Assembly: GCA_024277875.1 (NCBI GenBank)
Contig: JAJRUI010000086.1
Span: 1-39,654 of the forward strand
Reading direction: 5' to 3'
Origin: Deferrisomatales bacterium
GTDB taxonomy: Bacteria; Desulfobacterota; Deferrisomatia; Deferrisomatales; Deferrisomataceae
DNA: 39,654 nt
Both the position numbers and the translations under genes were made by a program. The notes under the pieces are model-generated. The model had not been told where the DNA came from. It did no database searches and worked only from the letters and a program-made list of their open reading frames with translations. This document shows, piece after piece, positions 15,587-39,510 of the stretch. Numbering within the stretch: the first letter of the stretch is position 1; each line of letters starts with the position of its first letter.

Positions 15587-15648
15587 TTCAGGTTCCAGGT
15601 TAAAGGTTCGAGGTTAAAGGTTCGAGGTTTCCGGTCACCGGTCACTGT
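15587..15648. repeat. Heptanucleotide array R1 (gpgP-gpgS junction)
   Basis: Period-7 array: AGGTTCC, AGGTTAA, AGGTTCG, AGGTTAA, AGGTTCG in series (about 15590-15628), then CGGTCAC twice (15632-15645). It starts 11 bp before the gpgS start (plus-strand sense) and extends over the gpgP stop, so the final codons of gpgP (NSDR-stop) are made of array units. Confidence 0.85.
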
Positions 15649-22271: not shown

Positions 22272-22984
22272 TGCAGCTTTCGGTGGAGAACCTGCACGTG
22301 TCCTACGGAAACATCCGGGCGCTGCAGGGGGTGAGCTTCGAGGTGGACGAGGGCGAGATCGTGTGCATCATCGGCGCCAACGGCGCCGGCAAGAGCACCA
22401 CCCTGCGGGCGATCTCCCGGATGGTGGATCCCGAGCCCGGGTCCAGGATCACGTTCCAGGGCGAGAACCTGCTCGATTCCCCCCCCGACCGGGTGGTGAG
22501 CCGGCTGGGCATCTCCCACGTGCCCGAGGGCCGGCGTCTGTTCGGCAACCTCACCGTGCTCGAGAACCTCAAGCTGGCCACCTTCGCCCGCAAGGACCGG
22601 GACGCCATCGCCCGGGACCTGGAGCGGGTGTTCGCGATCTTCCCGCGCCTGGCCGAGCGCAAGGAGCAGAAGTCCGGCACCATGAGCGGCGGCGAGCAGC
22701 AGATGCTCGCGATCGGCCGGGCGTTCATGAGCGGCCGCAAGGTCATGCTCCTGGACGAGCCGTCCATGGGGCTCGCGCCCCTGCTCATGCGCACCGTGTT
22801 CGACTCCCTCCGGGAGATCAACCAGGAGGGCACCACGATCCTGCTGGTGGAGCAGAACGCCCGCATGGCCCTCCAGTTCAGCCAGCGGGGCTACGTGCTC
22901 GAGCACGGCCACCTGGTGCTCCAAGGCCCGTCCAGAGACCTGCTGGACGACCCCGAGGTGAAGAAGACGTATCTGGGGGGGTGA
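22271..22984 (+). CDS. livF: Branched-chain amino-acid ABC transporter ATPase LivF (system 2)
   Basis: ATPase of 237 residues, ATG 22271 overlapping the livG2 stop. It has Walker A GANGAGKST, SHVPEGRRLFGNLTV, signature MSGGEQQMLAIGRA, Walker B MLLDEPSMGLAP and LLVEQNARMAL. It ends with KTYLGG and a TGA that opens directly into a heptamer array (GGTGAGGTTCGAGG). It is the last gene of the second liv operon, and no T-rich terminator was seen after it. Confidence 0.95.
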   Translation: MQLSVENLHVSYGNIRALQGVSFEVDEGEIVCIIGANGAGKSTTLRAISRMVDPEPGSRITFQGENLLDSPPDRVVSRLGISHVPEGRRLFGNLTVLENLKLATFARKDRDAIARDLERVFAIFPRLAERKEQKSGTMSGGEQQMLAIGRAFMSGRKVMLLDEPSMGLAPLLMRTVFDSLREINQEGTTILLVEQNARMALQFSQRGYVLEHGHLVLQGPSRDLLDDPEVKKTYLGG

Positions 22985-23055
22985 GGTTCGAGGTTCGGGG
23001 TGACGCACAAACCATAACTCGTGACTCGTGAGCTGACCGCTGAACGCTGAACGCT
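22984..23055. repeat. Heptanucleotide array R2 (after livF2)
   Basis: Starts on the livF2 stop. GAGGTTC twice, then a diverged stretch, then ACTCGTG twice (23017-23030) and CGCTGAA/ACGCTGA units (about 23037-23053), all on a roughly 7-nt period. Three unit types lie side by side. It is followed by the promoter of the toxin-antitoxin pair. Confidence 0.75.
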
Positions 23056-25079: not shown

Positions 25080-25163
25080 CGGGTCGGTGATCGGTTGAAC
25101 TGCCGTGGTTGGCAACTCGTGATTCGTGATTGGTGAACCCCGAACCTGGAACCTGGAACCTCA
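25080..25163. repeat. Heptanucleotide array R4 (fprA-lysA junction)
   Basis: On the minus strand (sense of both genes): the fprA stop TGA, then AGGTTCC twice and AGGTTCG, then TTCACCA, ATCACGA, ATCACGA, followed by diverged units including CCACGGCAGTT and CGATCACCGACC up to about 18 bp before the lysA ATG. The order is AGGTTCS-type first, RTCACSA-type second. Confidence 0.85.
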
Positions 25164-26366: not shown

Positions 26367-26374
26367 GGTCTACC

Positions 26375-26462
26375 CAGGTTCGAGGTTCAATGTTCGAGGT
26401 TCCAAGTTCCAGGTTCACGAATCACGGCAGTCCACACCGACCACCGATCACTGGTCACCGCC
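26375..26462. repeat. Heptanucleotide array R5 (tyrA-fprA junction)
   Basis: Plus-strand reading: AGGTTCG, AGGTTCA, ATGTTCG, AGGTTCC, AAGTTCC, AGGTTCA, CGAATCA, CGGCAGT, then diverged CCACACC/GACCACC/GATCACT/GGTCACC units. It fills the space from the tyrA stop to 9 bp before the fprA start. Relative to the genes, the AGGTTCS and RTCACSA parts are in the opposite order and orientation from R4. Confidence 0.85.
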
Positions 26463-32821: not shown

Positions 32822-32871
32822 CAGGTTCCAGGATCACGAATCACCAATCACCAATCACGAGTCACCAGCCG
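32821..32871. repeat. Heptanucleotide array R6 (exporter-cysQ)
   Basis: Begins at the TAG stop (TTTTAGCAGG at 32816-32825), one AGGTTCC, then ATCACGA, ATCACCA, ATCACCA, ATCACGA, GTCACCA, GCC, ending 1 bp before the cysQ ATG. There is no Shine-Dalgarno sequence. The 3' part is the same unit series as in R9 with two fewer units. Confidence 0.9.
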
Positions 32872-33639
32872 ATGCAATCCTTACTCGACCCGCTGTGCGA
32901 CCTGGCCGTGGAGGCCGGCCGCGCGATCCTCGCCGTGTACGCCGGCCCGATCGCGGTGGACACCAAGGACGACCGGTCCCCCCTGACCGAGGCGGACCGG
33001 GCCGCCCACCGGGTGATCGCCGGCGGCCTGGCCCGCCTCGCCCCGGACGTCCCGATCCTGTCCGAAGAAGGCCGCCACGTGCCGTTCGACGAGCGGCGGC
33101 GATGGCGCCGGCTGTGGGTGGTAGACCCCCTGGACGGCACCAAGGAGTTCATCAAGCGAAACGGCGAGTTCACCGTGAACATCGCCCTGGTGGAGCACGG
33201 CGACCCGGTGCTGGGGGTGGTGTACGCGCCGGTGCCCGACCTCCTGTACTTCGCCGTTCACGGCGGGGGCGCGTGGCGCCGGCAAGGGCACGGCCCGGCC
33301 GAGCCGATCCGGGCCCGGGCCCCGGACCCGGCCCGGGGCCTGACCGTGGTCCAGAGCCGGTCCCACCCGTCTCCGGACCTGGAGGCGTACCTGGCCGGGT
33401 TGCCCGTGGCCGAGACCCTGGCCCGGGGCAGCTCCCTCAAGCTGTGCGCCGTTGCCGAGGGCTCGGCCGACCTGTATCCTCGGCTCGGGCCGACCATGGA
33501 GTGGGACACGGCCGCGGGCCACGCCGTGGTGGAGGCCGCGGGCGGCGCGGTGCGCACCCCGGCCGGCCAGCCCCTGCGCTACAACAAACCCGACCTCCTG
33601 AACCCCCACTTCATCGTGACGGGGGGAGCGACGACATGA
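32872..33639 (+). CDS. cysQ: 3'(2'),5'-bisphosphate nucleotidase CysQ
   Basis: Inositol-monophosphatase-fold Mg-dependent phosphatase, 255 residues. It hydrolyses PAP (and PAPS), the by-product of PAPS use. Metal-binding Glu is in LSEEG, motif [13 protein letters not shown] carries the two aspartates, and the C-terminal [15 protein letters not shown] motif is complete. ATG 32872 directly follows array R6 without a ribosome site. Its end overlaps cysD (ATGA), so the two are coupled. Placement with cysD/cysNC/cysC indicates recycling in sulfate activation. Confidence 0.95.
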
Positions 33640-34577
33640 CCGCGACCGACGACCGAACGGCCGGGCGGGTCCCCGCCCGGACCCTGACCCACCTCAAGCA
33701 ACTCGAGGCCGAGAGCATCCACATCATCCGCGAGGTGGCTGCCGAGTTCGACAACCCGGTGATGCTGTACTCGGTGGGCAAGGACTCCACGGTGATGCTC
33801 CACCTGGCCCTCAAGGCGTTCCACCCGGGCAAGCCGCCGTTTCCCCTGATGCACGTGGACACCACCTGGAAGTTCCGGGACATGTACACCTACCGGGACC
33901 AGGTGGTGGAGCGATTCGGCCTGGACCTGATCGTGTACGTCAACGAGGAGGGCGTGCGCCAGGGCATCGGGCCGTTCACCCACGGCTCCAAGAAGCACAC
34001 CGACGTCATGAAGACCGAGGCCCTCAAGAAGGCCCTGGACCAGTACGGGTTCGACGCGGCATTTGGCGGCGCCCGCCGGGACGAGGAGAAGAGCCGGGCC
34101 AAGGAGCGGGTGTACTCGTTCCGGGACCGCCACCACCGGTGGGACCCGAAGAACCAGCGCCCCGAGCTGTGGAACCTGTACAACGGCGAGGTGAACAAGG
34201 GCGAGTCGATCCGGGTGTTCCCCCTGAGCAACTGGACCGAGCTGGACGTGTGGCAGTACATCTACCTCGAGGACCTGCCGATCGTGCCCCTGTACCTCGC
34301 GGCCGAGCGGCCCGTGGTGGAGCGCGACGGCGTCCTGATCCTGGTGGACGACGACCGCCTGCCCCTCGAGCCCGGGGAGGAGCCGGTGCGCAAGATGGTC
34401 CGGTTCCGCACCCTGGGTTGCTACCCCCTGTCCGGCGCGGTGGAGTCCACCGCCACCACCCTGCCCGAGATCATCCAGGAGATGCTCCTGGCCACCACCT
34501 CCGAGCGCCAGGGCCGCGTCATCGACTTCGACCAGGCCGGCTCCATGGAGGAGAAGAAGAAGGAAGGGTATTTTTAG
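33636..34577 (+). CDS. cysD: Sulfate adenylyltransferase subunit 2 (CysD)
   Basis: Small catalytic subunit of the GTP-dependent ATP sulfurylase (ATP + sulfate to APS), 313 residues. PP-loop motif SVGKDS is at 46-51. Family segments are [33 protein letters not shown] and [14 protein letters not shown], with C-terminal KKKEGYF. It works as a heterodimer with CysN. Here CysN is the CysNC fusion 380 bp downstream, separated by heptamer arrays and a decayed four-helix-bundle gene. The TAG stop lies in TTTTAGCAGG, the same sequence as at the start of R6. Confidence 0.97.
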
Positions 34578-34658
34578 CAGGATGCTAGTGATTCGTGCCA
34601 GTGACCAATCACCAGTCACGAATCACAACAACTCACACCGGGCACGGTAGCTACGCTG
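34578..34658. repeat. Heptanucleotide array R7 (after cysD), with hairpin
   Basis: Degenerate period-7 units in both orientations after the cysD stop. A perfect 10-bp inverted repeat GTGATTCGTG (34588-34597) / CACGAATCAC (34617-34626) encloses further units (CCAGTGACCAATCACCAGT). The RNA could form a strong hairpin just past cysD. From about 34635 the array fades into non-repetitive sequence before the four-helix-bundle remnant. Confidence 0.8.
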
Positions 34659-34844
34659 ATGCGCACCCACAAGGATCTCGATGTCTGGCACGCGTCCGTG
34701 GCACTGGCCGGCAGAGTTGAGATCTCCCTCCTGACGGAACAGGGGGACGCAGACACATTGCAGATCGTTCAGGAAGAGCTGGATCGTATCGCCCGTATGC
34801 TCCAGGGCCTGATCCGCGCCGTCCGATCGAAATCGACACAGTAG
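34659..34844 (+). pseudogene. Internally deleted four-helix-bundle (S23/IVP-type) protein remnant
   Basis: A 61-residue frame whose first 18 residues (MRTHKDLDVWHASVALAG) match the start of the 23S rRNA intervening-sequence/four-helix-bundle family. Its last about 20 ([20 protein letters not shown]) match that family's end. The central helices (the usual IPSNIAEG section, about 60 residues) are missing, which suggests an internal deletion leaving a decayed gene. It has weak translation signals, is bracketed by heptamer arrays R7 and R8, and interrupts the cysD-cysNC operon. A functional micro-protein cannot be ruled out. Confidence 0.65.
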
Positions 34845-34956
34845 CCACGAGATTCCGTGTCTGGTGACTGGTTACAATCACGAGTCACCAGTCACGGCAG
34901 TTACCAATCACGAATCACGGCATTCACCAGTCACCGATCACCGGTCACGGACTCCC
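34845..34956. repeat. Heptanucleotide array R8 (upstream of cysNC)
   Basis: About 100 bp of degenerate ATCACGA/GTCACCA/GTCACGG units, preceded by an inverted part. GGTGACTGGT (34863-34872) is the exact complement of ACCAGTCACC (34926-34935), so a long imperfect hairpin is possible. It ends 7 bp before the cysNC ATG, with no ribosome site. The array is open in the cysNC frame back to 34864, but nothing supports a start there. Confidence 0.85.
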
Positions 34957-36906
34957 ATGAGCCACCAAAGCGACCTCATCGAGACCGACATCCTCGCCTA
35001 TCTCGGGCAGCACGAGCGCAAGGAACTGCTGCGGTTCCTCACGTGCGGCAGCGTGGACGACGGCAAGAGCACCCTGATCGGGCGGCTCCTGTACGACTCC
35101 AAGATGGTGTACGAGGACCAGCTCGCCGCGGTGCGGGCCGACACGGCCCGGCACGGCACCGTGGGCGACCGGGACTTCGACCCGGCGCTCCTGACCGACG
35201 GTCTCAAGGCCGAGCGCGAGCAGGGCATCACCATCGACGTGGCGTACCGGTACTTCTCCACGGCCAAGCGCAAGTTCATCATCGCCGACACCCCAGGCCA
35301 CGAACAGTACACCCGCAACATGGCCACGGGCGCGTCCACCTGCGACCTGGCGATCATCCTGATCGACGCCCGCAACGGCGTGATGACCCAGACCCGCCGC
35401 CACAGCTTCATCGCGTCCCTGCTGGGCATCCGGCACATCGTGGTGGCCGTGAACAAGATGGACCTGGTGGGCTACGACGAGGCGGTGTACGACCGGATCG
35501 TGGCCGACTACCGCGCGTTCGCCGCCAAGCTCGAGGCGGCCGACGTGCAGTTCGTGCCGATCTCGGCGTTGGACGGCGACAACGTTGTCCACCCCAGCGA
35601 CCGGATGCCGTGGTATGCCGGCAGCACCCTGATGCACATCCTCGAGAACGTGCACATCGCCAGCGACCGCAACCTGATCGACTTCCGGTTTCCGGTGCAG
35701 TACGTGATCCGGCCCCACCTGGACTTCCGGGGGTTCGCCGGCACCATCGCGTCCGGCGTGGTCCGGGTCGGAGACGAGGTCGTGGTCCTGCCGTCGGGCA
35801 AGCGCAGCCGGGTCCGGTCCATCGAGACCCGGGACGGCAACCTGGCCGAGGCGTTCGCCCCCCAGGCGCCGGTGCTCACCCTGGAGGACGAGATCGACGT
35901 GAGCCGGGGCGACCTGCTGTGCCCGGTGAACAACGTCCCGCGGGTCGACACCGTGTTCGAGGCCATGATCGTGTGGATGGCCGAGGAGCCCCTGGTCCCC
36001 AACCGGCCGTACCTGGTCAAGCACACCACCCGCAAGGTGCCGGGCTCGGTCGCCCGGATCCGGTACCGGATCGACGTGAACACCATGCACCGGCACCCGG
36101 CCGAGGCCCTGGCCCTGAACGAGATCGGCCGGTGCGTGGTGGAACTGTCCGCTCCGATCGCGTTCGACCCGTACGGCAAAAACCGGTCCACCGGCGCGTT
36201 CATCCTGATCGACCGGCTCACCAACAACACGGTGGCCGCGGGCATGATCCTGGACACCCGGGGCGCCGACCTGGCCACCCAGCGCCGGACGTTCCACCAG
36301 AGGCTGGAATCGGGCGCCCGGTGCCACGAGAGCCTGGTCACCCCGGCCGAGCGGGCCCGGCGCCTGGGGCACCGGCCGGCCACGGTGTGGCTCACCGGCC
36401 GGGCCGGGGCGGGCAAGACCACCATCGCGTACGCCCTGGAGCGCAAGCTGTTCGACGAGGGCCGCCTGGCCCAGGTGCTCGACGGCCGCAACCTGCGCCT
36501 CGGCCTCAGCCGGGACCTGGCGTTCACCGGCGCGGACCGGGCCGAGAACCTGCGGCGGGCCGGCGAGGTGGCCCGGCTCCTGAACGACGCCGGCGTGATC
36601 GCGGTGTGCGCGTTCCTGTCCCCCCGGGCGGCCGACCGGGAAGCGGTGCGCCGGATCGTGGGCGACGACCGGTTCCTGGAGGTGTACCTGGACACCCCGG
36701 CCGACGTGTGCCGCCGGCGGGCCGCCGAACACCCGGACCCGGGCAGCCTGCGGCCGTACGGCGACCCGGACGCGCCTTTCGAGGGCCACGAAGGCGCCGG
36801 CGGCGCCGACCTGGTGCTCCCCACCCACGAGTGGGCCGTGGACGCGTGCGTGCAGAAGATCCTGGATACCCTGGCCGAGCAGGGCGTGCTGGCCGGGGAC
36901 CGGTGA
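34957..36906 (+). CDS. cysN: CysN-CysC fusion: sulfate adenylyltransferase GTPase with a degenerate APS-kinase domain
   Basis: A protein of 649 residues. Residues 1-about 455 are the CysN GTPase regulating ATP sulfurylase: P-loop [20 protein letters not shown], switch [30 protein letters not shown] and NKMDLVGY. Residues about 470-649 are an APS-kinase-like domain with Walker [10 protein letters not shown] (481-489). Where kinases have DGDN this has DGRN (D509-N512), and the RDPKGLYxKAR lid segment is absent (replaced by a Pro/Asp-rich stretch). The kinase half may therefore be weak or inactive. A second, intact CysC lies 1.9 kb downstream. Confidence 0.93.
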
Positions 36907-38799: not shown

Positions 38800-39402
38800 A
38801 TGACACCAGCGGACCGCAACCTCGTGTGGCACCACCGCCGGATCGGGCGGGCCGACTACCGCCGGCGCAACGGCCACCCCGGTGCGGTGTTGTGGTTCAC
38901 GGGCCTGTCCGGATCGGGCAAGTCCACCCTGGCCAACGCGGTGGAGGAGGCGCTGTTCGCCCAGGGGGTGTACACCTACCTGCTGGACGGCGACAACGTG
39001 CGCCACGGCCTGAACCGGGACCTGGGGTTCGGCGCCGGGGACCGGGTCGAGAACATCCGCCGGATCGGCGAGGTGGCCCGGCTGTTCGTGGACGCGGGCC
39101 TGGTGGTGCTCACCGCGTTCATCTCGCCGTTCCGGGCCGACCGCGACCGGGTGCGGGCGCTCCTCGGGCCCGGGGAGTTCGCCGAGATCCACGTGGCGTG
39201 CGACCTGGCCACCTGCGAGGCCCGGGACCCCAAGGGCCTGTACCGCAAGGCCCGGGCCGGCGAGATCCCCGAGTTCACCGGCCTCACCAGCCCGTACGAA
39301 CCCCCCCTCGCCCCGGAACTGGTGGTGGACACCGCAACCACCCCCCTGGACCAGTGCGTGCGCCAGGTGCTGGGGCTGTGGGAAAGAATCCGTGACTCGT
39401 GA
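38800..39402 (+). CDS. cysC: Adenylylsulfate (APS) kinase CysC, stand-alone
   Basis: Phosphorylates APS to PAPS, 200 residues from ATG 38800. Walker [10 protein letters not shown] at 35-43, catalytic-type DGDN at 63-66 ([17 protein letters not shown]), [26 protein letters not shown], and the lid [20 protein letters not shown] with SPYEPP are all complete. This contrasts with the fused domain in cysNC. The last codons and the TGA stop (ERIRDS-stop) run into array R9, so the C-terminal residues are array-derived. Confidence 0.97.
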
Positions 39403-39510
39403 TTCGTGATTCGTGACAGGTCAAGACAAAGAGCAAAGTCACCGATAACGAGCAACGAGCCACCAATCACCAATCACCAATCACCAATCACGAGTCACGA
39501 GTCACCAGCC
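39391..39510. repeat. Heptanucleotide array R9 (cysC-wecB), inverted halves
   Basis: The left half reads CGTGACT, CGTGATT, CGTGATT, CGTGAC. The middle is about 50 bp less regular (AAGACAAAGAGCAAAG region). The right half reads ATCACCA three times, ATCACGA, GTCACGA, GTCACCA, GCC, ending directly at the wecB ATG. CGTGACTCGTGATT (39391-39404) is the exact reverse complement of 39486-39499, a perfect 14-bp stem. Confidence 0.9.

Follow-up and report, generated by a model that had tools for sequence, protein, structure and literature searches.

A decayed S23 gene between two heptamer arrays at the cysD-cysNC junction of a Deferrisomatales bacterium, and its likely relation to a family of mobile cassettes

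The 379 bp that separate cysD from cysNC in this genome are quite probably a decayed mobile 'S23 cassette', in which an S23 protein was paired with its own terminal arrays. This reading is drawn from sequence comparison, and we favor it because the same anatomy recurs in other genomes, the repeat unit is coupled to the protein, copies are found in unrelated surroundings, presence and absence alternate at corresponding sites, and slots that lack the gene keep an array. A broader proposal, on which we are finely balanced, is that such cassettes form a widespread class of mobile elements in bacteria. Their sole gene would code for a four-helix-bundle ring protein able to read a tandem repeat of short units, and inverted arrays of that repeat would form their ends, the unit and its period (7, 8 or 9 bp) being specific to each protein clade; the intervening sequences (IVS) of rRNA would then be a special landing place, and many unexplained intergenic heptamer arrays would be gene-less remains.

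The cysD-cysNC spacer and its gene remnant

The window (the whole stretch of DNA analysed, 39,654 nucleotides) carries cysD and cysNC in the same direction, the latter, judging by its sequence, presumably a fusion of the sulfate adenylyltransferase large subunit with APS kinase. The cysD gene terminates with a TAG at 34577 and cysNC starts with an ATG at 34957, leaving a gap of 379 bp (34578-34956; Table 1). The initial annotation described this spacer as holding array R7, a 61-residue S23/IVP remnant without its centre, and array R8, and we confirm that description. Tandem Repeats Finder places the two arrays at 34598-34626 (R7) and 34871-34948 (R8). The gap does not lie in a 23S rRNA gene, and the window has no Rfam match at gathering thresholds.

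Table 1. Features of the spacer, its neighbours and the related arrays in the window.
Feature	Coordinates	Strand	Basis or remark
Gene-less array, same heptamer family as R7 and R8	32833..32867	+	
cysD, sulfate adenylyltransferase small subunit, upstream neighbour	33636..34577	+	Same direction; orthologs 75-78% identical in G056, G035 and G019
Cassette outer stem, left arm	34580..34597	+	17 predicted pairs with 34909-34925
Upstream heptamer array R7, reverse-strand units followed by CACCAGT/CACGAAT units	~34584..34626	+	Limits by eye
S23 / 23S_rRNA_IVP four-helix-bundle gene remnant, 61 aa, centre deleted	34659..34844	+	ORF translation and profile matches
Downstream heptamer array R8	~34857..34951	+	Limits by eye
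Cassette outer stem, right arm	34909..34925	+	Predicted pairing with 34580-34597
cysNC, downstream neighbour	34957..36906	+	Same direction
Gene-less inverted pair, same heptamer family as R7 and R8	39388..39507	.	Predicted hairpin

A search for cysD in 59 genomes (E 1e-60 or better) gave matches in seven, the genome of the window included, and in none of the three genomes of the same family. In five of the six relatives with a match, the end of cysD and the beginning of cysN share a TAATG or TGATG in which stop and start codons overlap, the five being the three with the orthologs listed in Table 1, G004 (cysD 54% identical) and G006 (49% over part of the gene); in the sixth, G007 (49%), the two genes are separated by a gap estimated at ~150 bp. 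Because cysD and cysN overlap in five of the six, the 379 bp segment looks as if it had been inserted at their junction. This agrees with the inserted-cassette layout of the initial annotation, which had proposed a check for an uninterrupted cysD-cysN in relatives, G007 being the exception. The end of cysD in the window reads TATTTTTAG, similar to the TATTTTTAATG of L204.

The 61-aa ORF has no Pfam match and does not reach the curated cut-off of the S23 family (TIGR02436, PF05635). Two NCBIfam models align to different parts of it, with scores well short of their cut-offs: residues 1-20 align to positions 1-20 of a 118-position profile (E 0.0085) and residues 34-59 to positions 90-115 of a 117-position profile (E 0.019); both models also match 13 of 13 aligned S23 proteins. 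When a profile of these 13 sequences was searched against the genome of the window with E values up to 10, the ORF was the sole place returned, again in two pieces (profile 3-22, E 1.45; profile 92-121, E 0.31), which are individually insignificant, yet ordered, adjacent and the only returns. With phmmer the remnant scores 24.5 bits against a set of 90 S23 sequences (16 of them with internal stops), and none of 500 shuffles reaches that score, the best giving 13.8. Its best match is L038, although narrowly so (24.5 versus 21.7 bits for L040), and the arrays of L040 are unlike those of the window. The central RRA..SIPSNIAEG region is absent from the remnant, and the NIAEG motif that is invariant in S23 proteins falls in this missing centre. 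Since the two profile ends occur in order and the phmmer score stands clear of all the shuffles, the ORF is, as judged from its sequence, a decaying S23 relative that has lost its centre and not a functional member of the family. No other four-helix-bundle gene was returned in this genome (92% complete, 150 contigs).

The arrays point to the same relative as the protein. Among the 76 array-bearing S23 loci of the first set described below, L038 is the best match of both R7 (0.63, next 0.54) and R8 (0.87, next 0.70), and its arrays rank first of the 76 for five window arrays (R7, R8, 32833, 39391 and 39461); a mixed array at 25115-25161 puts L038 third. The window's unit, searched as the CACYARTCACYARTCAC pattern with up to one mismatch, is frequent only in the genome of L038, around the L038 S23 gene and in a few other places: there were 23 matches in G048 against 7 for the control, compared with 2 against 2 in G001, 1 against 0 in G002, 1 against 2 in G003, 0 against 4 in G049, and 0 against 0 in each of G020 and G028. 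Within the genome of the window a three-heptamer pattern, also allowing one mismatch, gave 46 overlapping matches at ~15 sites, and the reversed control gave none. The segment 34570-34960 is predicted to fold as RNA better than its shuffles (z -3.7, 0/100), with the outer stem of Table 1 enclosing the remnant ORF, and the gene-less pair further downstream is predicted to form a hairpin with 20 consecutive outer pairs (39392-39411 with 39486-39505, z -7.8).

Arrays of other units are also present in the window. Heptamer arrays of the AGGTTC type lie at 15590-15629, 22983-23001 and 26374-26417, with further arrays of GCTGAAC at 23032-23055 and of GAACCTG at 25142-25161, and the best matches of these are arrays of other S23 clades (L083 and L095), which suggests that this genome has at some time hosted several families of cassettes.

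S23 genes and their flanking arrays in other genomes

PF05635 matches occur in 35 of the 59 relatives, 144 in all. The best 90 of these by E-value, from 32 genomes, make up a first set, which leaves out three partial matches and those at about E 2.7e-15 and weaker. Arrays were detected at 13/16 (15/18 in the initial period scans), with a low-complexity filter of 0.70 for the flank and protein-repeat counts of the first set and of 0.65 for the second set and for the intergenic-gap and orientation counts. In the first set (best 90 of 144), the 250 bp next to the S23 gene were scored for arrays with a period of 7, 8 or 9: the upstream side has one in 59 of 84 loci, the downstream side in 66 of 90, and 49 of 84 loci have one on each side, compared with 43 of 507 more distant windows of the same loci. 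At this threshold 14 of the 90 loci show no array. Periods 5, 6 and 10-13 are found at 0-2 loci per side near first-set genes, and taken together periods 4-6 and 10-13 are almost missing near S23 genes. A stricter control, using other intergenic gaps at the loci of both sets, found an array in 33 of 144. Upstream and downstream arrays, scored in the first set only, are inverted relative to each other in 42 of 51 loci and direct in 8, with one tie. Among the 76 array-bearing loci the period is 7 in 56, 8 in 17 and 9 in 3.

These counts bear on several suppositions of the initial annotation. The outcome that it had named as refuting, four-helix-bundle genes elsewhere in the genome that lack flanking arrays, did not arise, the arrays of the relatives being far above background and mostly inverted. 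The search for further four-helix-bundle genes that it proposed drew a blank in the genome of the window and succeeded in the relatives, where arrays flank them. Its picture of a cassette bounded by heptamers holds in that arrays flank S23 genes, and needs amending in that a period of 7 is merely the commonest of three.

A second set, the best 80 of 587 loci, is biased towards relatives of L038, the L038 protein having been used for confirmation. Here arrays were found upstream in 48 of 78, downstream in 44 of 74 and on both sides in 28 of 72 loci, against 59 of 977 distant windows. The array-bearing records come from Bacteroidetes, Clostridia and Bacillota, Patescibacteria, Planctomycetota, Anaerolineae and others, and are often one-sided. 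Of three further records, taken from a plasmid collection, one each from Riemerella anatipestifer and Calothrix has inverted heptamer arrays flanking the S23 gene, and the other Riemerella record, which starts 21 bases upstream of the gene, shows just the downstream array. Across both sets, 109 of 136 scored loci have the S23 gene in the sense of both neighbours, as in the window, and five have it opposed to both, the scored loci being those of 170 with predicted neighbours (simple ORF calls) on both sides within 600 bp.

Several individual loci are worth describing. In the R. anatipestifer plasmid records L229 and L228, in which heptamer arrays surround the S23 gene, it comes after an iron-sulfur assembly accessory gene in one and before sufB in the other, apparently another operon split by this gene family. 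In the conjugative plasmid of Calothrix brevissima NIES-22 (L230) the S23 gene is downstream of a phage-integrase-family gene and has GGGTGTA-type inverted arrays on both sides. In L062, L066 and L037 the shared unit runs ~40 bp past the 8-mer arrays into more small hairpins, and these outer hairpins may belong to the element or mark a favored target.

A relationship between repeat unit and protein is seen among the array-bearing loci (76 of 90 in the first set, 66 of 80 in the second). In the first set, array similarity rises with protein similarity for pairs from different genomes (r 0.25, 0/2000 permutations) and also for pairs from different taxonomic families (r 0.21, 0/2000). Different-family pairs with a protein similarity above 0.6 share the period in 20 of 20 cases, with a mean array similarity of 0.63 against ~0.25 for unlike proteins; these 20 pairs are not independent, 11 coming from two 8-mer clades and the nine others having period 7, which is common anyway, and array similarity is 0.45 or less in six of them. 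Dissimilar S23 paralogs of one genome have a mean array similarity of 0.27 (64 pairs), and since such paralogs differ in their unit, the genome as a whole does not set it. In 63 of 76 first-set loci the period is the same as at the locus of the closest protein from another genome, where 45 would be expected by chance. The second set (best 80 of 587) gives a weaker correlation (r 0.18, 0/2000) and period sharing of nearest proteins at the chance level (41 of 66, 41.3 expected). From these comparisons we infer that an S23 protein may recognize its own repeat; the coupling can also arise by linkage without recognition, if gene and arrays simply travel together.

Copies, corresponding sites and the origin of the spacer

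Evidence bearing on mobility comes from comparison of cassettes within and between genomes. Two cassettes of G049 share 504 bp at 94% identity in different surroundings, and a pair in G021 shares 441 bp at 86%; the homology common to such copies spans gene and arrays together. G085 has a second copy elsewhere, 71% identical, in which the homology (query 970-1408) ends at the arrays.

A more complex situation is seen at two orthologous sites. At the L085 site G003 carries an S23 cassette of 500 bp, and G001, G002 and the genome of the window (contig C23) have 61-82 bp with array-like hairpins of other kinds, the one in the window's genome resembling by eye its CACC-type unit. The slot at C23:38737-38797 and its counterparts in G001-G003 are thus a single intergenic position with different array-like elements, as if it had been reused or overwritten. 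At the L039 site a cassette of ~485 bp in G001 corresponds to 143-150 bp with 8-mer arrays in G002 and G003. An interpretation of the L085 and L039 sites as bare empty sites was rejected, the gene-less genomes carrying other arrays there, and no target-site duplication was identified by eye at either.

One slot was followed through the genus of Chryseobacterium aahli. Of 40 genomes, nine have an insert of cassette size there that matches the cassette region without a break, and the other 31 are without the gene; the locus could be read in 30 of the 40. Among the slots without the gene, 21 were read, and 10 of these have no gene body but keep sequence from the end of the S23 gene, or from just past it, together with a downstream array that is sometimes altered, a state close to that of the cassette in the window; other gene-less slots hold different hairpins. 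Loss or replacement fits several of the gene-less slots, here and at the two sites above, as well as gain does.

Copies at unrelated sites and presence/absence variation, the features expected of a mobile element, are thus both found for the relatives of the cassette, and for these the sequences argue that it is probably mobile. In these comparisons, the near-identical copies in unrelated surroundings and the differences at orthologous sites fit the link to a mobile cassette that the initial annotation had put forward. For the window's own copy the evidence of mobility consists of the overlapping junction in five of six relatives.

How far the data favor a decayed mobile cassette can be judged against three other readings. 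It is quite unlikely that the arrays are hairpin elements of a general intergenic kind, arising and spreading alone, with S23 genes as passengers in array-rich gaps. Gene-less arrays are indeed common, as the 33 of 144 other gaps attest, the genome of the window has ~15 array sites for the single S23 remnant returned, and one slot may carry different arrays across genomes; set against this, unit and period track the S23 protein across families and differ between dissimilar paralogs, the homology between copies takes in gene and arrays, and the arrays are mostly inverted about the gene. That the 61-aa ORF is a chance ORF in a mere run of repeats is scarcely credible, even though it failed every curated family cut-off and neither half is significant by itself in the genome search, given that none of the 500 shuffles approaches its score, that the two ends of the S23 profile are matched in the right order as the sole return in the genome, and that the ORF sits between the arrays at distances usual for the family.

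A host regulatory module is an unlikely alternative. Here the S23 protein would adjust the expression or processing of the neighbouring genes by binding the arrays, as DNA or within the operon message; this would account for the strong sense orientation within gene runs (109 of 136) and the stable predicted hairpins, and it would agree with the excision of the Coxiella S23p IVS from 23S rRNA by RNase III (PMC4990558). The patchy distribution in the slot of a single genus (9 of 40), together with the loss of the gene body and retention of an array in the window and in 10 of 21 gene-less slots, argues instead for a dispensable element. Of the readings considered, the decayed mobile cassette is the one we prefer.

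A sequence of events consistent with a mobile cassette can be outlined. The element would consist of a small S23/IVP gene with an array of a 7-9 bp repeat on each side, the two arrays being inverted relative to each other, and would have entered an overlapping cysD-cysN junction in the sense direction; later the gene would have lost its centre, the arrays staying in place. The S23 protein would be translated from the message of the host operon and may bind its own repeat as DNA, single-stranded DNA or an RNA hairpin, and could thereby help the cassette to be copied into, or kept at, new positions between genes, using an enzyme that acts in trans. On this view the changes at orthologous sites would include gains. 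Cassettes of ~440-500 bp have no room for a second large gene, and no recombinase is present within those read.

Two candidate helpers were considered. A reverse transcriptase as required trans helper was rejected, RVT_1 being found in 13 of 35 S23-positive and 7 of 24 S23-negative genomes (p 0.59), with no match at E 1e-5 in the genome of the window (G000, 92% complete). The Y1 transposase (Y1_Tnp) is present in 26 of 35 S23-positive and 8 of 24 S23-negative genomes (p 0.003, phylogeny uncorrected); it was rejected as a general requirement, being absent at E 1e-5 from 9 of the 35 S23 genomes, and remains a lead. The genome of the window has two Y1_Tnp matches, on contigs C107 and C86, and none on the window's contig C66. 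The number of S23 genes is not significantly correlated with genome size (Spearman 0.21, p 0.11).

An S23 protein paired with its own repeat would join two puzzles, the function of S23p and the IVS and the origin of heptamer arrays, and an S23 cassette would explain how operons such as cysDN acquire spacers. The cassettes offer a large natural series of protein-repeat pairs, in which binding of each S23 protein to its own repeat is testable, and solved structures are available among the S23 relatives (2gsc, 2rld).

Comparison with known systems

The closest known relatives are the IVS of rRNA in Coxiella, Leptospira and others, with which the cassettes have the protein family in common. The Coxiella account calls the 428-nt S23p IVS element selfish, discusses inverted repeats at the IVS ends, and describes two to three GACAGAT heptamers before the S23p ORF and one strain with a 176-bp deletion inside it; in the same account S23p is without known function, the role of the IVS is little understood, and the Xanthomonas S23p is a homopentamer of four-helix bundles (PMC4990558). 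Insertions in the rRNA of CPR bacteria also encode an S23 protein, termed functionally uncharacterised (PMC11270868). The cassette in the window shares with the IVS ends that pair into a predicted stem around the S23 ORF, whereas the cassettes differ in lying between protein-coding genes, in often having arrays on both sides, and in a repeat that varies with the protein.

REPIN/RAYT systems are similar in their hairpin-forming inverted short repeats, which are extragenic and tied to a specific protein family (PMC3116915); inverted doublets of this general form are seen as inverted arrays in the relatives and as predicted hairpins in the window. The cassette units are, however, tandem 7-9-mers and not REP palindromes, and the protein is a four-helix bundle, whereas RAYT is a tyrosine transposase. 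A further likeness is to Avd of diversity-generating retroelements, the NCBIfam Avd model matching 13 of 13 S23 proteins at E 0.001 or better, with a first S23 match of 26.9 bits that is below the cut-off of 80. Avd is essential to retrohoming, and its resemblance to PF05635 has been noted (PMC10053308); these retroelements differ in that S23 presence is not associated with RVT_1. The TAACTGA heptamers of Beggiatoaceae, also found in Microcystis, are likewise intergenic tandem heptamers, and the paper on them makes no link to S23, the terms 'four helix', 's23' and 'intervening' being absent from it (PMC4679880).

The literature searched offered no agreed source for intergenic heptamer arrays. 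Among the papers listed from open-access PubMed Central, preprints excluded, none connects intergenic S23 genes to inverted arrays and protein-specific units, a weak indication of novelty. By this comparison the S23p IVS in rRNA is the known part and the intergenic S23 cassette with protein-paired inverted arrays the apparently new one, of which the copy in the window would be one decayed example.
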